In this document: piece by piece, positions 8-33,361 of the stretch
How positions within the stretch are numbered: the first letter of the stretch is position 1
Layout: each line of letters opens with the position of its first letter
Source of the DNA: a virus
Length of the DNA: 33,422 bases
Reading direction: 5' to 3' (one strand)
Virus record (IMG/VR): IMGVR_UViG_3300009790_000039
Location: 1-33,422 of that record
Position numbers and translations under genes: made by a program
Notes under the pieces: model-generated
What the model was told of the DNA's origin: nothing
The model's database searches: none
What the model saw: only the letters and a program-made list of their open reading frames with translations

Positions 8-547
8 ATGAACCCTTATGATAAGTTATTACACAGGAAAAGAAAGTGGACTCCCGTTAAACCGACAGCGGGAGCCCTCCTTGACGGTAGTGAAGAAGCC
101 ATCTACCGTGCTTTGGCAATACGGCATATGGAGCTACCTGTTGGTTCCTTTATTACGGAAACCCTTAGCAAAGAGGTTCCCGAAATTGCTAGAACACTTC
201 TCGAATCCAACGTAAAGGATGAGGAGAGACATGATCTTGCTCTAGGATACGTGGCAGAAGTCCACGGACTAGACGAGAAGGCAGAGAAAGAGGCGAAGCT
301 ACTACGTGATGCGTGGATAGCTCACCCTGACCATACAATACTAAAAGCATTGGTAGCAGAACGTGCAATATTCTTTGTTATCTTACCTTTCAATCGCTTT
401 TGTGGCGATGCTGCTCTTAGGACAGTATCGGCTGACATCTCCAGAGATGAACAGATCCACGTGGCTTGCAATAGTCTCGTATGTTCTGATATGGGGCTAC
501 GCCCTAGTAGTTCTCTGGATAAACTTAGGAAAGCTACAATTAATTAG
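8..547 (+). CDS. R2-like di-iron protein (ribonucleotide reductase small-subunit type), N-terminal part
   Basis: Ferritin-like four-helix protein related to the class I ribonucleotide reductase small subunit, which makes the radical needed to turn ribonucleotides into deoxynucleotides. Visible metal-ligand pattern: E42 (candidate), E72-x-x-H75 in DEERH, E118 in VAERA, E148-x-x-H151 in DEQIH. At this point 179 residues are read before TAG. The start is fixed to ATG 8 or later because TGA at 2-4 is in frame. A gene annotated as ribonucleotide reductase lies just upstream of the portal region in P-SSP7-like cyanophages, which fits. The reading frame continues after the TAG for 58 residues with family-like sequence, so this ORF looks like the front of a 239-codon gene. 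It is much shorter than usual R2 proteins (over 300 residues), so full RNR activity is uncertain. Confidence 0.75.
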   Translation: MNPYDKLLHRKRKWTPVKPTAGALLDGSEEAIYRALAIRHMELPVGSFITETLSKEVPEIARTLLESNVKDEERHDLALGYVAEVHGLDEKAEKEAKLLRDAWIAHPDHTILKALVAERAIFFVILPFNRFCGDAALRTVSADISRDEQIHVACNSLVCSDMGLRPSSSLDKLRKATIN

Positions 548-724
548 ATCTTTGAACCACTTAGTTCTACCGCAGAGCATAAATATTTGAACAGAAAATT
601 TTGGACTGATTCTAGTGATCGTCTAATGTATGAGGGTAAAGCCCCCGAACTTTCTGACACTAAGCGAGCCCGTATGCCCGCATTTTTTGAACATGCAAAC
701 ACCAACTTACCACAGTACTCTTGA
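548..724 (+). other. In-frame continuation of the R2-like gene after an amber codon
   Basis: Directly after TAG 545-547 the same frame stays open for 58 codons to TGA 722-724. It begins IFEPLSS and includes ARMPAFFEHAN, wording that reads as the C-terminal part of the same R2-like family, where I expect a Trp (TGG) at the amber position. It has no good start codon or Shine-Dalgarno of its own. TAG could be a TGG-to-TAG mutation, a sequencing error, or a readthrough site. TAG is an ordinary stop elsewhere in the window (for example at 19438-19440 and 32816-32818), so genome-wide recoding is unlikely. Confidence 0.7.
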
Positions 725-878
725 CTGGGGACGTATCGAGAAGATCGTTGATGAACTCGACCAGCAGTTTCCAGACAGGTTCCCAGACCACAACCTATCA
801 GAGAAAGCAATATCCTATAGGGCTGGTCAATTATCTATTATAAGATTACTTAAAAATAAATTAAAACACGGAGAATAA
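693..878 (+). CDS. Small hypothetical protein before the virion genes
   Basis: 61 residues, charged and probably helical, rich in Asp, Glu, Lys and Arg, with a central IEKIVDELDQQF helix and a basic C-terminus. I do not recognise a domain. I chose ATG 693 rather than ATG 630 because 630-692 lies over the R2-like frame and its translation looks like out-of-frame noise, while the sequence from 693 on is coherent. With this start the gene overlaps the R2-like continuation by 32 bases. The AGGAG-like signal upstream is weak, so translational coupling to the upstream gene is likely. Confidence 0.6.
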   Translation: MQTPTYHSTLDWGRIEKIVDELDQQFPDRFPDHNLSEKAISYRAGQLSIIRLLKNKLKHGE

Positions 879-880
879 CT

Positions 881-1192
881 ATGTGTCTACCTGGATTATT
901 TGGAGGAGGCAGTCGAACCCCACCACCACCACCAATCCCAGCCCCACCAACAACTCCACCACCTCCACAGCAACCACAACAAGCTCCAGTTACCCCACCT
1001 GATGCTCCAACTCCAACTCCTATTTCAGAAGATGAGACAAAGAGAAAGGCTAAGGTAAGAGCTAAGAAGAGACCACAGAAAGGTAGAGGACAGCAAGGTA
1101 CACAATCCTTACAAACTCCGAAGCCAAATACTGGAGGACTCCAAGGGCCAACAACACCACAAGGAACTAACACTGGTACAAACACTCCATGA
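881..1192 (+). CDS. T7 gp7.3-like virion protein, proline-rich
   Basis: 103 residues. The N-terminus is MCLPGLFGGG, followed by a Pro/Gln-rich low-complexity stretch (about residues 13-47), then a basic segment ETKRKAKVRAKKRPQKGRG and a Thr/Asn/Gly-rich tail. T7 gp7.3 (host-range and adsorption protein of the tail tip) also lies just before the portal gene and ends in a similar basic stretch followed by a Ser/Gly-rich tail. Homology is therefore inferred from position and C-terminal pattern; the proline-rich spacer is unlike T7. A good Shine-Dalgarno (GGAG, about 8 bases upstream) supports the start. The stop overlaps the portal start as ATGA. Confidence 0.55.
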   Translation: MCLPGLFGGGSRTPPPPPIPAPPTTPPPPQQPQQAPVTPPDAPTPTPISEDETKRKAKVRAKKRPQKGRGQQGTQSLQTPKPNTGGLQGPTTPQGTNTGTNTP

Positions 1193-2769
1193 AGAACGCA
1201 CGGCAACGCTACCAAGAGTTAGCGAGTCACCGTGAACAATTCTTAAATGTTGCTTACCAATGTGCAGAGTTAACTATCCCCACGTTACTAATGAGGAACG
1301 AGGGAGATACATTATACAATGACTTTGTAACACCTTGGCAATCAGTCGGAGCGAAGGGAGTAACCACGCTGAGTTCAAAGCTCATGCTAGGTCTGCTCCC
1401 TCCCTCGACCAGTTTCTTTAAACTACAGTTAGACGATTCAAAGTTAGGCGTAGAAATACCACCCGAAGCAAAGAGTGAATTAGACTTATCGTTTGCAAAG
1501 ATAGAACGTATGATCATGGAGAGCATTGCTGCCTCCACAGATAGAGTACAGATCTTTGCTGCATTAAAGCATCTCGTTGTCGCTGGCAACGCTTTGTTGT
1601 ATATGGGTACAGATGGTATGAAAGTATACCCATTGAATCGCTACGTGGTTGAGAGAGATGGTAACGGAGACGTGGTTGAGATAGTAACAAAAGAGAAAGT
1701 CAACAGAGAACTGTTAGGATTACCAGACGATGACGATGGCCCTAACGATGATGACAAAGGTGACTATAAAGGAACAAAAGATGTAGATGTATATACATGT
1801 GTGAAATTATATGATGGACAATGGCGTTGGCATCAAGAGGCAAAGGATCACATCCTACCTGACAGTGTAGGTAAGGCTCCTAAGTCTAAGACCCCTTGGC
1901 TCCCCCTCAGATTTGTAACTGTGGATGGAGAAGACTACGGTCGTTCTAGAGTTGAAGAGTTCCTTGGGGACTTGAAGTCTTTAGAAGCATTGATGCAAGC
2001 TATCGTTGAGGGTAGTGCAGCAGCAGCTAAGGTTGTATTTACTGTATCACCTTCCTCAGTTACCAAGCCAGCATCACTAGCTAACGCAGCTAACGGATCT
2101 ATCATACAGGGTAGACCTGATGATGTGGGTGTAGTACAGGTAGGTAAAACTGCTGACTTCAACACAGCATATCAGATGATCAACCTGTTAGAGAAGAGAT
2201 TAGCTGAGGCTTTCCTTGTCTTACAAGTACGCCAGTCAGAGAGGACTACAGCGGAAGAGGTAAGGATGACACAGATGGAACTAGAGAGACAGCTGGGTGG
2301 ACTCTTCAGCTTGTTAACGACAGAGTTCCTCATACCCTACCTCAATCGTAAGATGCACACACTAACTAGATCTAAGGCAATACCTTCGGTACCTAAGAAC
2401 CTAGTTAAACCTACTATCGTAGCAGGTATAAATGCTCTAGGTAGAGGACAGGATAGAGATGCACTGATACAATTCATAACTACAATCTCACAAACTATGG
2501 GGCCAGAGGCATTAGCCCAGTACCTCAATGCTGATGAAGCTATCAAGCGTCTTGCAGCTGCACAGGGTATCGACATACTGAACCTTGTTAAGAGCATGGA
2601 AGAACGTCAAGCAGAACAGCAACAAGCACAGCAAGCACAACAAATGCAGTCCCTGACTGACCAGGCAGGTCAATTAGCTGGGACTCCTATGATGGATCCA
2701 TCTAAAAATCCAGAAGTCGTTGACGCAGTAAACGCAATGGTCTCTGGAGGTACACCACAACCACAATAA
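1189..2769 (+). CDS. Portal (head-tail connector) protein, T7 gp8 family
   Basis: 526 residues, close to T7 gp8 (536). The portal ring sits at one capsid vertex, nucleates head assembly and passes DNA during packaging and ejection. Family-like features include the N-terminal helix RQRYQELASHREQFL, the segment GAKGVTTLSSKLMLGLLPP near residues 54-73, the adapter-facing region around SRVEEFLGDLKSLEALMQ, and the conserved-looking ERTTAEEVRMTQMELERQLG (about residues 351-370). The C-terminus is Gln-rich (EERQAEQQQAQQAQQMQ), a common portal tail. It starts within the previous gene (ATGA) and stops two bases before the scaffold gene, so the three are translated as a unit. Confidence 0.95.
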   Translation: MKNARQRYQELASHREQFLNVAYQCAELTIPTLLMRNEGDTLYNDFVTPWQSVGAKGVTTLSSKLMLGLLPPSTSFFKLQLDDSKLGVEIPPEAKSELDLSFAKIERMIMESIAASTDRVQIFAALKHLVVAGNALLYMGTDGMKVYPLNRYVVERDGNGDVVEIVTKEKVNRELLGLPDDDDGPNDDDKGDYKGTKDVDVYTCVKLYDGQWRWHQEAKDHILPDSVGKAPKSKTPWLPLRFVTVDGEDYGRSRVEEFLGDLKSLEALMQAIVEGSAAAAKVVFTVSPSSVTKPASLANAANGSIIQGRPDDVGVVQVGKTADFNTAYQMINLLEKRLAEAFLVLQVRQSERTTAEEVRMTQMELERQLGGLFSLLTTEFLIPYLNRKMHTLTRSKAIPSVPKNLVKPTIVAGINALGRGQDRDALIQFITTISQTMGPEALAQYLNADEAIKRLAAAQGIDILNLVKSMEERQAEQQQAQQAQQMQSLTDQAGQLAGTPMMDPSKNPEVVDAVNAMVSGGTPQPQ

Positions 2770-2771
2770 CT

Positions 2772-3617
2772 ATGGCAGAAACAATCCGCTACGACACATC
2801 TGATGATCCCGTAGCAGCACAACAAATAGCTGAGGCAGAGGCTGAGTCTCTGAAGGTAGGCGAAGAGCTTATGGCAAAGCAAGATAAAATGCTTGCTGGT
2901 AAGTACAAATCCGCTGAAGATTTAGAGACTGCTTACCTAGAATTACAAAAGAAACTAGGTCAGGACACACCAGCTGAAGAAGCCCCTAAAGAGGAAGCCG
3001 TAAGAGATGATTTCTATACGGACGATGGAGGTGTCAATTATGACACAGCCAACGAGTTGTATGGGGATCAACTAGGTAACCTCTTCAAAGATAATAGCAT
3101 CGACCCCTTTGCTATGAGCAAACATTTCTCAGAGAACGGTGGTACTCTGTCCGAGGAAATGTACACAGAGTTAGGTAAGGCTGGTCTTAGTAAAGACATA
3201 GTTGACTCCTACCTTGATGGAGTACGTAACAGAAATGGTATCGAACCAACAGCTCCTACTTTATCTGACTCAGAAATTAATGAAGTCAAAGGCATAGCTG
3301 GAGGCGAAGAAGGTTATCAAACTCTAATGGACTGGGCTGGTCAGAACTTAGACCAAACAGCAATAGAAGAGTATGATAATGTACTCAAAACAGCAAACAA
3401 ATCGGCAATCAAATTCGCAGTCTCAGCACTTATGGGAAAATATGAGGACTCACAAGGACGTGATTCTAAAATCGTAACAGGTAAAGAATCCCCACAAGAA
3501 TCCTACAGAAGTATGGCAGAAGTCGTACGTGATATGAACAAGCCAGAGTACACACAAGATCAAGCGTTCAGAGATGACGTGATTAGAAAATTAGCAGCCT
3601 CTAATTTAAAAGTATAA
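2772..3617 (+). CDS. Capsid assembly scaffolding protein, T7 gp9-like
   Basis: 281 residues, strongly acidic overall, rich in Glu, Asp and Ala, with predicted helices and a C-terminal helical segment ending IRKLAASNLKV. Scaffolds direct capsid protein into the procapsid shell and then leave. The family call comes from position (portal, then scaffold, then capsid), composition, length similar to T7 gp9 (about 307) and a KYKSAEDLETAYLELQKKLG segment near residues 45-64 that is typical of podovirus scaffolds. In cyanopodoviruses the photosynthesis genes are inserted after this gene, as here. Confidence 0.88.
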   Translation: MAETIRYDTSDDPVAAQQIAEAEAESLKVGEELMAKQDKMLAGKYKSAEDLETAYLELQKKLGQDTPAEEAPKEEAVRDDFYTDDGGVNYDTANELYGDQLGNLFKDNSIDPFAMSKHFSENGGTLSEEMYTELGKAGLSKDIVDSYLDGVRNRNGIEPTAPTLSDSEINEVKGIAGGEEGYQTLMDWAGQNLDQTAIEEYDNVLKTANKSAIKFAVSALMGKYEDSQGRDSKIVTGKESPQESYRSMAEVVRDMNKPEYTQDQAFRDDVIRKLAASNLKV

Positions 3618-3858: not shown

Positions 3859-4920
3859 ATGGCAACAATCACTTTAACAAAACCGAGCTCGTCTTGGAAC
3901 AACTTTTGTGAGTGGGTAACAAGCACTAATAACCGCCTCTACTTGGGGTGGTTCGGTGTTCTTATGATACCTTGCTTACTAACTGCAACAACTTGCTTTA
4001 TACTCGCCTTTATTGCTGCACCTCCTGTGGACATAGATGGCATACGTGAACCAGTATCTGGCTCTCTACTCTATGGAAACAACATCATATCTGGAGCGGT
4101 CGTTCCCTCCTCAAACGCAATCGGACTACATTTCTATCCCATCTGGGAAGCAGCAACACTTGACGAATGGCTCTATAACGGAGGGCCGTATCAGCTTGTC
4201 ATCTTTCACTTCCTTATCGGTGTCGCAGCTTACTTGGGACGCCAATGGGAACTTAGTTATAGACTAGGCATGCGTCCTTGGATATGCGTAGCTTACTCAG
4301 CTCCCGTATCAGCTGCCTTTGCGGTCTTCTTAGTTTACCCATTCGGACAGGGTTCATTCTCTGACGGTATGCCTTTAGGAATAAGTGGAACATTCAACTT
4401 TATGTTTGTCTTCCAAGCGGAGCACAACATCCTTATGCACCCCTTTCATATGCTCGGAGTTGCGGGCGTTTTTGGTGGTGCTTTGTTTGCTGCTATGCAC
4501 GGAAGCCTTGTTACATCCTCAATCATACGGGAGACTACGGAGGAGGTCTCACAGAACTATGGATATAAGTTTGGTCAAGAGAACGAGACTTATAATATAG
4601 TAGCTGCACATGGATACTTCGGTAGATTAATTTTCCAATATGCGAGCTTTAATAACAGCCGTGCTTTACATTTCTTTCTTGGTACTTGGCCTGTTGTTGG
4701 CATCTGGCTTACCTCGATGGGCATATGCACAATGGCTTTTAACCTAAACGGTTTCAACTTCAACCAGTCAGTTGTTGACAGCAATGGTAAAGTTATCCCC
4801 ACATGGGCTGACATTGTCAATAGACAGAACCTCGGCTTTGAAGTAATGCACGAAAGGAACGCACATAATTTCCCATTAGACCTCGCTGGAGAGATAACTT
4901 CAGCACCCACCATATCGTAA
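3859..4920 (+). CDS. psbA: Photosystem II reaction-centre protein D1
   Basis: 353 residues, full length and intact. Numbered one less than standard D1, the key residues are present: Y160 (Tyr-Z, Y161), D169 (D170), E188 and H189 (E189, H190), H197 (P680 ligand H198), and the lumenal [13 protein letters not shown] ending with the D342 and A344 equivalents. Five membrane helices are expected. D1 turns over rapidly in light; the phage copy replaces host D1 during infection. Residue 129 (D1 position 130) is Gln, the form linked to the low-light D1 type. The C-terminal extension after the cleaved Ala is 10 residues ([10 protein letters not shown]), shorter than the usual cyanobacterial one. It follows hli directly. 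Confidence 0.98.
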
Positions 4921-4930
4921 TGACCACGTC

Positions 4931-4983
4931 CGTTCATCCTTTTTAAGGACGCATGACACCTAATCATGGAACGGGGATTAGGT
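4931..4983 (+). promoter_or_regulatory. Glutamine-II (downstream-peptide type) riboswitch candidate
   Basis: Three helices form the pseudoknot expected of the downstream-peptide RNA. P1 is CGTTC 4931-4935 with GAACG 4969-4973. P2 is TCCTT 4937-4941 with AAGGA 4945-4949. P3 is ACCTAATC 4958-4965 with GATTAGGT 4976-4983 (8 pairs), which crosses P1. The linker CGCATGAC (4950-4957) and the ATGGAACGGG core look like the family. The downstream-peptide RNA, known from marine cyanobacteria and their phages, binds glutamine and sits before very short ORFs. A GGAG Shine-Dalgarno (4988-4991) and a 17-codon ORF follow at once, so control of translation through P3 is likely. Confidence 0.75.
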
Positions 4984-4998
4984 ATATGGAGATTACCA

Positions 4999-5052
4999 AT
5001 GAAAGTAACCTACGTATATCGTGGCATTGCTTACACCAAAATAGTTAAGTGA
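4999..5052 (+). CDS. 17-residue DUF4278-like micropeptide under riboswitch control
   Basis: The product is MKVTYVYRGIAYTKIVK. The TYxYRGIAY core matches the start of DUF4278-type small proteins of cyanobacteria (M-x-L-x-YRGxxY). GGAG at 4988-4991 is spaced about 7 bases from ATG 4999. It sits directly below the riboswitch candidate and above a terminator, so it is the only gene the element can control in cis within this transcript. Short ORFs in this position give the downstream-peptide RNA its name. The role of the peptide is unknown. Confidence 0.7.
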   Translation: MKVTYVYRGIAYTKIVK

Positions 5053-5067
5053 AGCTAAATTCTTTAT

Positions 5068-5104
5068 GGGCTATAACCATCTCGGTTATGGCTCTTTTTC
5101 TTTT
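5068..5104 (+). terminator. Intrinsic terminator after psbA and micropeptide
   Basis: The stem is GGGCTATAACC (5068-5078) pairing with GGTTATGGCTC (5084-5094), 11 pairs with two G-U pairs and loop ATCTC, followed by TTTTTCTTTTT (5095-5105). It closes the transcription unit that carries scaffold, hli, psbA and the riboswitch peptide, and isolates it from the capsid gene. Confidence 0.85.
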
Positions 5105-5215
5105 TATAGAATGGTCACACGTTCTATATCATATGAGAGAAGAGACACCTCAGAGTCGGATCTCTTCTTAATTGGCAATGAGCCTCTAAGGAGATACCTC
5201 TTGCCGTCTAGACGG
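5105..5215 (+). repeat. Array of inverted repeats between terminator and capsid gene
   Basis: After the terminator there are four further inverted repeats. TATAGAATG 5105-5113 pairs with CGTTCTATA 5120-5128. AGAAGAGA 5138-5145 pairs with TCTCTTCT 5161-5168. GGCAA 5174-5178 pairs with TTGCC 5201-5205, extended by GAG/CTC. CCGTCTAGACGG 5204-5215 is a perfect 12-base palindrome that competes with the third stem. No gene is supported here: the 60-codon ORF 5066-5248 starts inside the terminator and has no family-like sequence. Possible roles are RNase III processing sites upstream of capsid mRNA (T7 has such hairpins), a small structured RNA, or binding sites for a regulator. From 5216 to 5290 I see nothing more than AT-rich spacer. 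Confidence 0.55.
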
Positions 5216-24506: not shown

Positions 24507-24928
24507 AGAGTAATATTGGAGTAACGAGCCACAGAATAAGAACGGATTTTAAAATACTTAAAACAATAAATTGTAAGTCTTTAGAAGCTGTGGAACTTAT
24601 AGTTCATAACTTAGAACATTTAAAAAAAGCTAAGTTTCCGACTGTAAAGATTCCGCAGTTTTCATACGAAGTATCTGATCTTGTAATTACGCAAACTTGT
24701 GAATTGATAAAAGGATGTGCAGTATCATGTCATCCCTCTAAAGAAAAAGTAATTATGAAAGAGATTGTCCAGAGAAAGGACGATTATACGTTTTCTGATT
24801 ACCACCACAGTAATTACATAGTAAGAGATAATGACTTATACGCTGTAGATCTCAGTTCGTATGGATATCTACCAGATCACTACTACCGAAACCACCTATG
24901 GATCAACAGACGCAAATCGTGTCTGTAA
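24485..24928 (+). CDS. Minimal kinase-like protein (phosphotransferase C-lobe pattern)
   Basis: 147 residues. TFSDYHHSNYIVRDNDLYAVDLSSYG (residues 102-127) resembles the catalytic loop and metal site of aminoglycoside/choline kinase-like enzymes: D105-x-H107-x-x-N110 and D122 in place of DFG. Upstream, VITQTCELIKG (67-77) resembles the hinge. There is no glycine-rich loop or upstream lysine, so the N-lobe is tiny or absent. Activity is doubtful, and it could be a relic or a lobe that acts with a partner. The gene starts 22 bases inside the distal fibre gene, suggesting co-translation with it. I am sure of the gene, less so of the fold. Confidence 0.5.
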   Translation: MLHNENLESNIGVTSHRIRTDFKILKTINCKSLEAVELIVHNLEHLKKAKFPTVKIPQFSYEVSDLVITQTCELIKGCAVSCHPSKEKVIMKEIVQRKDDYTFSDYHHSNYIVRDNDLYAVDLSSYGYLPDHYYRNHLWINRRKSCL

Positions 24929-25380
24929 GTAATTTCTGTACTAAACAAGAATTAGAAACAGTACTGAGATACACACACGATAAGAATTGGGCAATACAAA
25001 CAAGTAACACAGGGGACTCAACAGAGTTCTTTAAGCTCGACTTAACTAACATTAAGTTTTTTAATGATACTTTATTTAATAAATTAAAGAATACATTAAA
25101 GATTGAGTGCTCATTAGACAAAGTTTACTTTAATTTGCAGTACCCAAATCAACATGGTTCATTGCATCAAGACTATTGCCAATACACAGCTATATTGTAT
25201 GTAACTCCCTGGAATCCAGAATTAGGGGGATTTACACAGATTATGAGTAATAAGATTCTTGTCATTCCCCCCATACAAAATTCTTTAATTTGTTTTCCGT
25301 CACACTTATTCCATAAGGGATATGCTTGTACACACAATAAACGAATTTCCCTTGCATACAAATTAAACCTACACCAATGA
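24898..25380 (+). CDS. 2OG-Fe(II) oxygenase-like protein 1
   Basis: 160 residues. Double-stranded beta-helix pattern with the iron triad H90-x-D92 (SLHQDYCQYTAILYV) and H139 (SHLFHKGYA), and R149 ten residues later (HNKRISLAYKL), the usual 2-oxoglutarate-binding position. Such enzymes hydroxylate or demethylate substrates using O2 and 2-oxoglutarate. The substrate is unknown. It overlaps the kinase-like gene by 31 bases and the next oxygenase gene by 4 bases (ATGA). Confidence 0.72.
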   Translation: MDQQTQIVSVSNFCTKQELETVLRYTHDKNWAIQTSNTGDSTEFFKLDLTNIKFFNDTLFNKLKNTLKIECSLDKVYFNLQYPNQHGSLHQDYCQYTAILYVTPWNPELGGFTQIMSNKILVIPPIQNSLICFPSHLFHKGYACTHNKRISLAYKLNLHQ

Positions 25381-26141
25381 AACTATTTCAAACATTTAGA
25401 CATCCAGTCCCAACCTTTAGAGATCAAATTTATGTAGCCGACAAACAGTTAACACCTGAGTTTTGTAAGGCATGTATTGAAAAATTTGAAAGCGACCCAG
25501 CTATTTACAGCGGAGTTACAGCAAGTGGACTTCAAGTAGATACTAAACAATCTGACGACTTAGTGATCTCAAATTATAACCGTTGGAATAAAGAAGATAA
25601 CCAGATAGCAAACCAACTCACTAAGAACTTAAATAATTTCTTTGTGTCATTTGGCGAAAGATTTAGCTGGTGGACTCATCCAGAAATACACGATACTGGT
25701 TATCAAATACAAAGAACTCATCCCAATGGTTTTTATAACTGGCACTCAGATGCTGGTAATAGCACAAGGTGGTACACATTCATTTTCTATTTGAATGACA
25801 TTAAGAATGATGGTTATACAGAGTTCATTGATGGTACAAGGATACAACCTAAAACTGGAAGATTACTTCTATTTCCCGCTACAGACATCTATGCACACAG
25901 AGGTGTAGCTCCTAAAGACGAGATCAAGTATATCTTAACAGGATGGTTGCATAGGGATTTTGATGGAGATACAAGAATCAAAGGTAAGTGGCATGACTTA
26001 ATAACCGAGCCAGAAAAGCACAATCCTACTTTAGATGACTTACCTGAGAACAGATTTGATGCTGAAGATCAACACATAACACTAATAGAAGGAGAGGAAT
26101 TAGATATCGAAGATAACAATGTACAAATGATTTTAGATTAA
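25377..26141 (+). CDS. 2OG-Fe(II) oxygenase-like protein 2 (P4H-type)
   Basis: 254 residues. The iron triad is H123-x-D125 (FYNWHSDAGN) and H174 (IYAHRGVAP); K184 sits ten residues after H174, the lysine used by prolyl 4-hydroxylases to hold 2-oxoglutarate. GYTEFIDGTRIQPKTGRLLLFPA (146-168) is the core strand typical of this superfamily. A 55-residue acidic tail (about 200-254) follows the fold. The target is unknown; fibre or virion proteins or host proteins are possible. Confidence 0.85.
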   Translation: MKLFQTFRHPVPTFRDQIYVADKQLTPEFCKACIEKFESDPAIYSGVTASGLQVDTKQSDDLVISNYNRWNKEDNQIANQLTKNLNNFFVSFGERFSWWTHPEIHDTGYQIQRTHPNGFYNWHSDAGNSTRWYTFIFYLNDIKNDGYTEFIDGTRIQPKTGRLLLFPATDIYAHRGVAPKDEIKYILTGWLHRDFDGDTRIKGKWHDLITEPEKHNPTLDDLPENRFDAEDQHITLIEGEELDIEDNNVQMILD

Positions 26142-26423
26142 ATGGCAATCACTACCACGTGGGACGTAACCAGTCTACGCAGAGACAGTACAGATAAAGT
26201 CACTACTATTTCATATCTAGTAACCGCAAAGGAAGGTTCAAAAGAATCCGATGCTCAAGGTTCTGTTGAAATAGATGGTGATGTAACTGTAGCTTTCAAA
26301 GACATAACAAAAGACACGGCAATTACATGGGCTAAGAACGCATTAGGAGATGAGGTCGCATCTATAGAGGGTATGCTCTCTAAAGATCTTACCGAAACTA
26401 GCGGTGTGCCTTGGATTTCCTAA
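26142..26423 (+). CDS. Small beta-rich protein between oxygenases
   Basis: 93 residues, MAITTTWDVTSLRRDS...VTTISYLVTAKEG. I recall this short type in many cyanophages near tail and fibre genes and regard it as a probable small virion-associated protein. No enzyme motif is present. It starts on the base after the previous stop and its end overlaps the next gene by 13 bases. Confidence 0.6.
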   Translation: MAITTTWDVTSLRRDSTDKVTTISYLVTAKEGSKESDAQGSVEIDGDVTVAFKDITKDTAITWAKNALGDEVASIEGMLSKDLTETSGVPWIS

Positions 26424-27034
26424 ACTGCCAAGTACCTCATCAAGTAATAGATGAGATTTACAATCCACTCCTAAATGCACACGAATGGCGTGATGGAAAA
26501 GAAAACGCTGGGGACGAAATAAAAGATAGGAAGATACAAGACTTCCTAAGTTTTGACAGTTCCCTACACAATGCTCTTATTCCACGAGTAATGGAAATAC
26601 TTGAATATGACCTCATCAGAAACTACACCGTACCTAACGTAATGAGTAATATCATGTTTACCAGAACTATGGTAGGCGGTAAATACGGTGGGCATTATGA
26701 TAATGTCTGTATGAATGGGAATCGAGCTGACTATTCCTTCACGTTATTTTTAAACGATGACTACACAGGTGGAGAGTTAGAAGTTAACAAGACTCTTGTA
26801 AAACCTAAAAAAGGTAAGCTCTTTGTTTACCCGACACGGTATTACCATCAAGTAAAAGAAGTTACTGATGGAACTCGGTATGTCGCTGTCGGTTGGATAA
26901 CATCTATAGTTCAAGACGCAGATATAAGAACTGTTGTTGGTAAACTAGCAGAAGTTTCCAAGAAACACCCAGAGGTCAAAAATGACCTAACATACCTTGA
27001 GAATATACTTTTACAAAAATTCGGACAATTCTAA
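26411..27034 (+). CDS. 2OG-Fe(II) oxygenase-like protein 3 (PKHD-type)
   Basis: 207 residues. Triad H95-x-D97 (GGHYDNV) and H146 (YYHQVKEV), with R156 ten residues later (GTRYVAVGWI), as in PKHD-type hydroxylases such as PiuC. YTGGELEVNKTLVKPKKGKLFVYP is the expected core. The start must be TTG 26411: an in-frame TAG lies at 26399-26401 and the first internal ATG would remove the N-terminal third. A TTG start overlapping the previous gene suggests low, coupled translation. Confidence 0.85.
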   Translation: MDFLNCQVPHQVIDEIYNPLLNAHEWRDGKENAGDEIKDRKIQDFLSFDSSLHNALIPRVMEILEYDLIRNYTVPNVMSNIMFTRTMVGGKYGGHYDNVCMNGNRADYSFTLFLNDDYTGGELEVNKTLVKPKKGKLFVYPTRYYHQVKEVTDGTRYVAVGWITSIVQDADIRTVVGKLAEVSKKHPEVKNDLTYLENILLQKFGQF

Positions 27035-28784: not shown

Positions 28785-29417
28785 ATGCAATTAACTACAC
28801 CGCCTGTTGGATTCTGGTTACAAGATAACGTACCAGATGACTTAGTAAAACATCTCTGGACTTGTATAGGACAGCAACAAGAAAACGTCAAACACCAATT
28901 AGCTGGCCATATATCACAGAGTTATAGCATCCCAGATACGAACGGTAAGTTCACAAAGTATCTATTAGCTATTGCTCAAGAATATTACAAGGCTTACGAA
29001 GGTCATCCTCATCAAGACACTTTGGTTAGAAAAGGTAGAGAGTGGGTTATTAAGTTAGATAAATTCTGGGTTAACTACCAGAAAAAACACGAATTTCAAC
29101 CATTACATAGCCACACTGGTATGTACTCTTTCGTTGTCTGGTTGAAAATTCCTTATAACTGTAAAGAAGAAAATGAGTATGAGTTCATGCAAGATGTCAA
29201 GAAAGATGAAAGGAACGCAGGTTGTTTCTGTTTCACTTATACAGATATTTTAGGTAAAATCAAAAATGCTTTTTATGAATTAGATCAAGACATGGAGAAT
29301 ACTATTCTATTCTTCCCTGCGGGATTAAAGCATCAAGTCTACCCATTCTTTACAAGTAACGAAGAACGAGTATCAATATCGGGAAATTTATCCATAGACT
29401 TTAATAAAAAAACATGA
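28785..29417 (+). CDS. 2OG-Fe(II) oxygenase-like protein 4 (HxH variant)
   Basis: 210 residues. A family 2OG-FeII_Oxy_5-type pattern uses H108-x-H110 (PLHSHTGMYSFVVWL) where most have HxD, with H183 (GLKHQVYPF) and R195 twelve residues later (EERVSISGN). FFPAGLKHQV is the closing strand typical of this family. The gene begins on the base after the small helical gene and overlaps TerS by ATGA. The target is unknown. Confidence 0.75.
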   Translation: MQLTTPPVGFWLQDNVPDDLVKHLWTCIGQQQENVKHQLAGHISQSYSIPDTNGKFTKYLLAIAQEYYKAYEGHPHQDTLVRKGREWVIKLDKFWVNYQKKHEFQPLHSHTGMYSFVVWLKIPYNCKEENEYEFMQDVKKDERNAGCFCFTYTDILGKIKNAFYELDQDMENTILFFPAGLKHQVYPFFTSNEERVSISGNLSIDFNKKT

Positions 29418-33076: not shown

Positions 33077-33090
33077 AGTACATTTGTACT
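33077..33090 (+). repeat. Palindrome AGTACATTTGTACT, copy 1
   Basis: A 14-base repeat with 6-base arms and central TT, identical to 33348-33361. It lies 5 bases before the first GAGTATTTATACCTAT motif. Operator-like. Confidence 0.7.
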
Positions 33091-33095
33091 GTCAA

Positions 33096-33111
33096 GAGTA
33101 TTTATACCTAT
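33096..33111 (+). promoter_or_regulatory. Promoter-like repeat GAGTATTTATACCTAT, copy 1
   Basis: An exact 16-base match to 33314-33329; its TTTATACCTA core also precedes the capsid gene. Candidate phage promoter or -10 type element. Confidence 0.35.
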
Positions 33112-33329: not shown

Positions 33330-33361
33330 GTATCATTTGATACCTGGAGTACATTTGTACT
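33330..33361 (+). repeat. Two palindromes in tandem
   Basis: GTATCATTTGATAC (33330-33343) and AGTACATTTGTACT (33348-33361) each have 6-base arms and a central TT. The second is an exact copy of 33077-33090. Pattern suggests paired operator sites. Confidence 0.65.

Follow-up and report, generated by a model that had tools for sequence, protein, structure and literature searches.

The interrupted nrdB gene and its surroundings

The window analysed here is the whole of record IMGVR_UViG_3300009790_000039, a linear virus contig of 33,422 bases that lacks the early part of the genome. Only 7 bases of the contig precede the start codon, an ATG at position 8, of a gene for an RNR ferritin-like/beta subunit (nrdB, gp34-like). 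The frame at 8-724 on the plus strand comprises 179 codons, an in-frame TAG at 545-547, 58 further codons and a TGA at 722-724. The 5' part of the gene (8-547, plus strand) encodes a 179-residue piece that by itself matched PHROG 6799 with an E value of 1e-95. According to translation, alignment and an AlphaFold2 model, the remainder (548-724, plus strand) encodes the end of a helix spanning residues 168-182, a helix at approximately 196-208, and a C-terminal arm with a conserved penultimate tyrosine, Tyr237. The start of the next gene (693-878, plus strand), which encodes a 61-residue protein of unknown function matching PHROG 4970, overlaps the last nrdB codons, and the annotation of Cyanophage NATL2A-133 shows this overlap too. 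A sequence-only reading of this DNA had proposed that the TAG is followed in the same frame by 58 family-like codons, which was borne out by translation and by homology on both sides of the stop. In an annotation, this gene is best entered as a cyanophage RNR small subunit gene whose frame is interrupted, and not as a variant of reduced length.

The RNR small subunit gene is followed by two small ORFs and the connector gene, with psbA further downstream, an order matching that of T7-like marine cyanophages. In NATL2A-133 (GU071104, Tangaroavirus), the genes for alpha, gp34, a small overlapping ORF, a small ORF and the connector occur in the same succession as in the window; gp34 is 78% identical to the window protein and its frame is uninterrupted. 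The alpha-subunit gene is located directly upstream of nrdB in five of the relatives (L002-L004, L007 and L016), whereas the window contig begins too near nrdB to include it.

The joined protein is a cyanopodovirus RNR beta subunit

With X in place of the stop, the joined protein matched PHROG 6799 (RNR class Ia beta subunit) over positions 1-238 of 238 with an E value of 7.8e-129. The same query, carrying X at position 180, aligned from end to end, or nearly so, in 56 GenBank phage records, and residues 194-238 of the window protein are identical to those of the relative L002. Harrison et al. 2019 (PMC6370689) described this protein as the P-SSP7 RNR beta subunit that had previously been overlooked and placed it in the class I group "Cyano SP", whose beta genes lie directly behind the alpha gene in the relatives. 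Over the full length, the window protein shows 72.7% homology to the P-SSP7 protein, and both share a common metal-ligand pattern. Burnim et al. 2022 (PMC9531940) later assigned the same enzymes to a separate class, class O (Ø), with a ferritin-like partner of approximately 240 residues that has a ferritin fold and a tyrosine next to its last residue. Compared to class Ø systems, the window copy differs in that its frame is interrupted and the contig does not reach its alpha gene.

Both E/D plus EXXH metal motifs (E, E, H, E, E, H) are present in the window copy. The ligands E42, E72-x-x-H75, E118 and E148-x-x-H151, taken from the list given for P-SSP7 beta in PMC6370689, whose numbers after 42 run one lower than those of the window, fall in invariant alignment columns, and all six are encoded upstream of the TAG. 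In contrast, the C-terminal Tyr237 is encoded 3' of the TAG and is absent from the 179-residue product as written.

A Pfam search with the window protein gave no match, in line with the literature on the divergent Cyano SP/class Ø beta family. The AlphaFold2 model of the read-through protein had a pLDDT of 82.8, with values under 50 in the tail (219-238). Its top Foldseek matches were mostly RNR R2 subunits (probability 1.00), with a best E value of only 2.5e-3 and TM scores of about 0.5-0.6. The predicted R2/ferritin-like fold is consistent with the identity as an RNR small subunit, but this support is weaker than that from sequence. The homology identifies the full-length gene as that of the 238-residue cyanopodovirus RNR ferritin-like/beta subunit, a known family. 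The initial identification as an R2-like nrd gene was therefore right, and the alignment to cyanopodovirus nrd proteins suggested along with it yielded homology over the full length.

The stop at codon 180 is private to this record

Codon 180 is TGG (Trp) in all 80 loci of a first set and in 168/168 loci of the combined larger set, which represent fewer independent genomes, as some contigs contribute more than one locus. Further close contigs, retrieved with an exact pattern allowing either letter at the site, also carried TGG. In P-SSP7 and the other relatives read, no TAG occurs at codon 180, unlike in the window copy. Three degenerate scans of IMG/VR for TAA, TAG or TGA at this codon returned no homologue with a stop; the six stretches that matched were devoid of homology to the protein and were regarded as chance matches. 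On these grounds, recurrent truncation at codon 180 was rejected, though a sister record or population with the same TAG could exist. The sequence-only reading had expected a tryptophan one base away from TAG at this position, and the uniform TGG agrees with this far beyond chance. Relatives whose proteins end at residue 179 were also looked for, and none was found.

Apart from the stop, nrdB is in good condition. Among 25 aligned relatives, the only other private residues of the window copy are A23, E84 and H191, all at variable columns. Compared to 14 close relatives, dN/dS ranged from 0.07 to 0.14 over codons 1-179 and from 0.08 to 0.32 over codons 181-228, the latter being a noisy estimate based on 48 codons, among them those of the variable linker 186-193. 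Because of the overlap with the next gene (start at 693), residues 229-238 were left out. Relaxed selection downstream of the TAG was not seen, as the slightly higher values there include this linker. As the arm 3' of the stop is conserved, any loss must be very recent, or no loss has occurred. When the relatives' ORFs were compared with the window, nrdB was the only broken gene among those with a comparable orthologue. None of the other flagged cases is an interruption in a real gene: they comprise shadow frames lying within psbA, a weak match of short length at 4953-5150, and a tail-fibre-like match that is repetitive.

Disrupted nrdB copies in other records

Frame disruptions of nrdB were also encountered elsewhere. 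In both records of S-CBP4 (L089, L090; HM559717, KC310804), nrdB is frameshifted at approximately residue 190-200, near AAAAATTTT, and in one of the two a further A is missing from the gene. The S-CBP4 shift may be real, at the slippery-looking A AAT TTT, or may reflect a miscall in a homopolymer. In P-RSP2 (L088, approximately 1129-3207), both RNR genes appear frameshifted and are unannotated, due to decay or sequencing errors. In L016, the nearest DNA relative (86%), the stretch at 4818-4890 is 4 bases shorter near codon 19, which shifts the nrdB frame. Recurrent loss was set aside as an explanation for these three cases, as their positions differ and two of them lie in or beside homopolymer runs. 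These singleton disruptions show that nrdB interruptions, whether errors or real, are not rare in the databases.

Origin of the TAG codon

Taken together, the data point to an ordinary cyanopodovirus nrdB in which the invariant Trp180 codon was changed from TGG to TAG in one assembled sequence, either by error or by a private, recent nonsense mutation (probability about 0.9). The change at the Trp180 codon would be of the G-to-A type. The TAG is located 545 bases from the end of the linear contig. Coverage is often low near contig ends. An assembly or sequencing error, in which case the virus has TGG and makes a normal protein, has about an even chance or slightly better of being correct. This reading agrees with the position of the site near the contig end, with the uniqueness of the TAG against 168 relatives, with the otherwise normal constraint on nrdB, and with the singleton disruptions at unrelated places in other public nrdB copies (the frameshifts in S-CBP4, P-RSP2 and L016). 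However, the contig's other genes open to comparison are unbroken, and a contig so clean implies a lower error rate overall. A real and recent private nonsense mutation, present in the sampled virus as a null or minority allele, is a serious contender, though its chances fall somewhat short of even. The TAG is one transition away from the invariant codon, and the pristine downstream sequence implies that any loss would be very recent. At least one cyanopodovirus lineage, MPP-C, has been reported to lack an rnr gene (PMC9860041), suggesting that the loss is tolerable in some backgrounds. On the other hand, RNR is kept and strongly conserved in the relatives seen, and a damaging allele would seldom be expected to become the consensus. 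The nearness to the contig end, the uniqueness of the stop and the pristine remainder slightly favour an error over a mutation, although from sequence alone the two are not separable. Fresh loss of function and sequencing error, two of the three options originally put forward, thus both remain.

The third option, programmed readthrough, lacks support, since neither a relative with the stop, nor an RNA structure, nor a suppressor tRNA was found. Programmed or suppressed readthrough of the TAG would yield a short 179-residue core and a long 238-residue beta subunit differing in the C-terminal arm. The open and conserved downstream frame fits such an arrangement but would be no less likely with a new or erroneous stop, and the relatives carry TGG in 168/168 loci instead of a stop at codon 180. 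No tRNA gene was found in the 33-kb window, which excludes the early genome part, or in the scanned regions of the relatives. The 103 nt 3' of the TAG (548-650) folded no better than shuffled sequences (z 0.64), nor did the region around it (500-650, z 0.94). Moreover, the terminase gene of the window ends with a TAG exactly where the terminase of a relative also ends, which upholds the earlier statement that TAG is a normal stop elsewhere in this DNA. Readthrough is accordingly very improbable. Phage-wide amber recoding, with TAG read as an amino acid, was rejected because only nrdB is interrupted, the window contains no tRNA gene, and TAG is the true terminase stop. Even less credible is a two-piece subunit in which the arm is restarted at Met207 and works together with the 179-residue core. 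The corresponding ATG (626-628) lies in the nrdB frame, and initiation there would produce an arm peptide of 32 residues; however, Met207 is invariant in the family and hence no adaptation to the stop, no Shine-Dalgarno-like sequence precedes this ATG, and no split case occurs among the relatives.

Predicted consequences of the truncation

If the TAG is real, the allele would be carried by the sampled virus or by a minority of its population. Translation would stop after 179 residues, so that the four-helix metal-binding core is made but lacks the last part of helix 168-182, the helix after it and the near-invariant C-terminal arm that carries Tyr237. A C-terminal tyrosine has been proposed to function in radical transfer to alpha (PMC9531940), and Tyr237 is its counterpart in the window protein. 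As the arm carrying this residue presumably faces the alpha subunit and hands on the radical, the truncated protein should not support reduction, and the allele would therefore be null or strongly impaired. We infer that a real TAG would mean loss of function, with no adaptive role. Either an error or a private null allele would be of little importance beyond annotation. If the TAG proved to be fixed in a population, it would represent a naturally truncated class Ø subunit, lacking a C-terminus with a so far only proposed role.

Further features of the window

A glutamine-II riboswitch aptamer (Rfam RF01704, 58.5 bits) is located at 4928-4983 on the plus strand, directly behind psbA (3859-4920). 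Four matches to 2OG-Fe(II) oxygenase PHROG families occur in one late region, at 24898-25380, 25377-26141, 26411-27034 and 28785-29417. In the non-coding right end, the palindromic 14-mer AGTACATTTGTACT occurs twice without mismatch, at 33077-33090 and 33348-33361 (0.08 expected by chance), and GAGTATTTATACCTAT is repeated there at 33096 and 33314.
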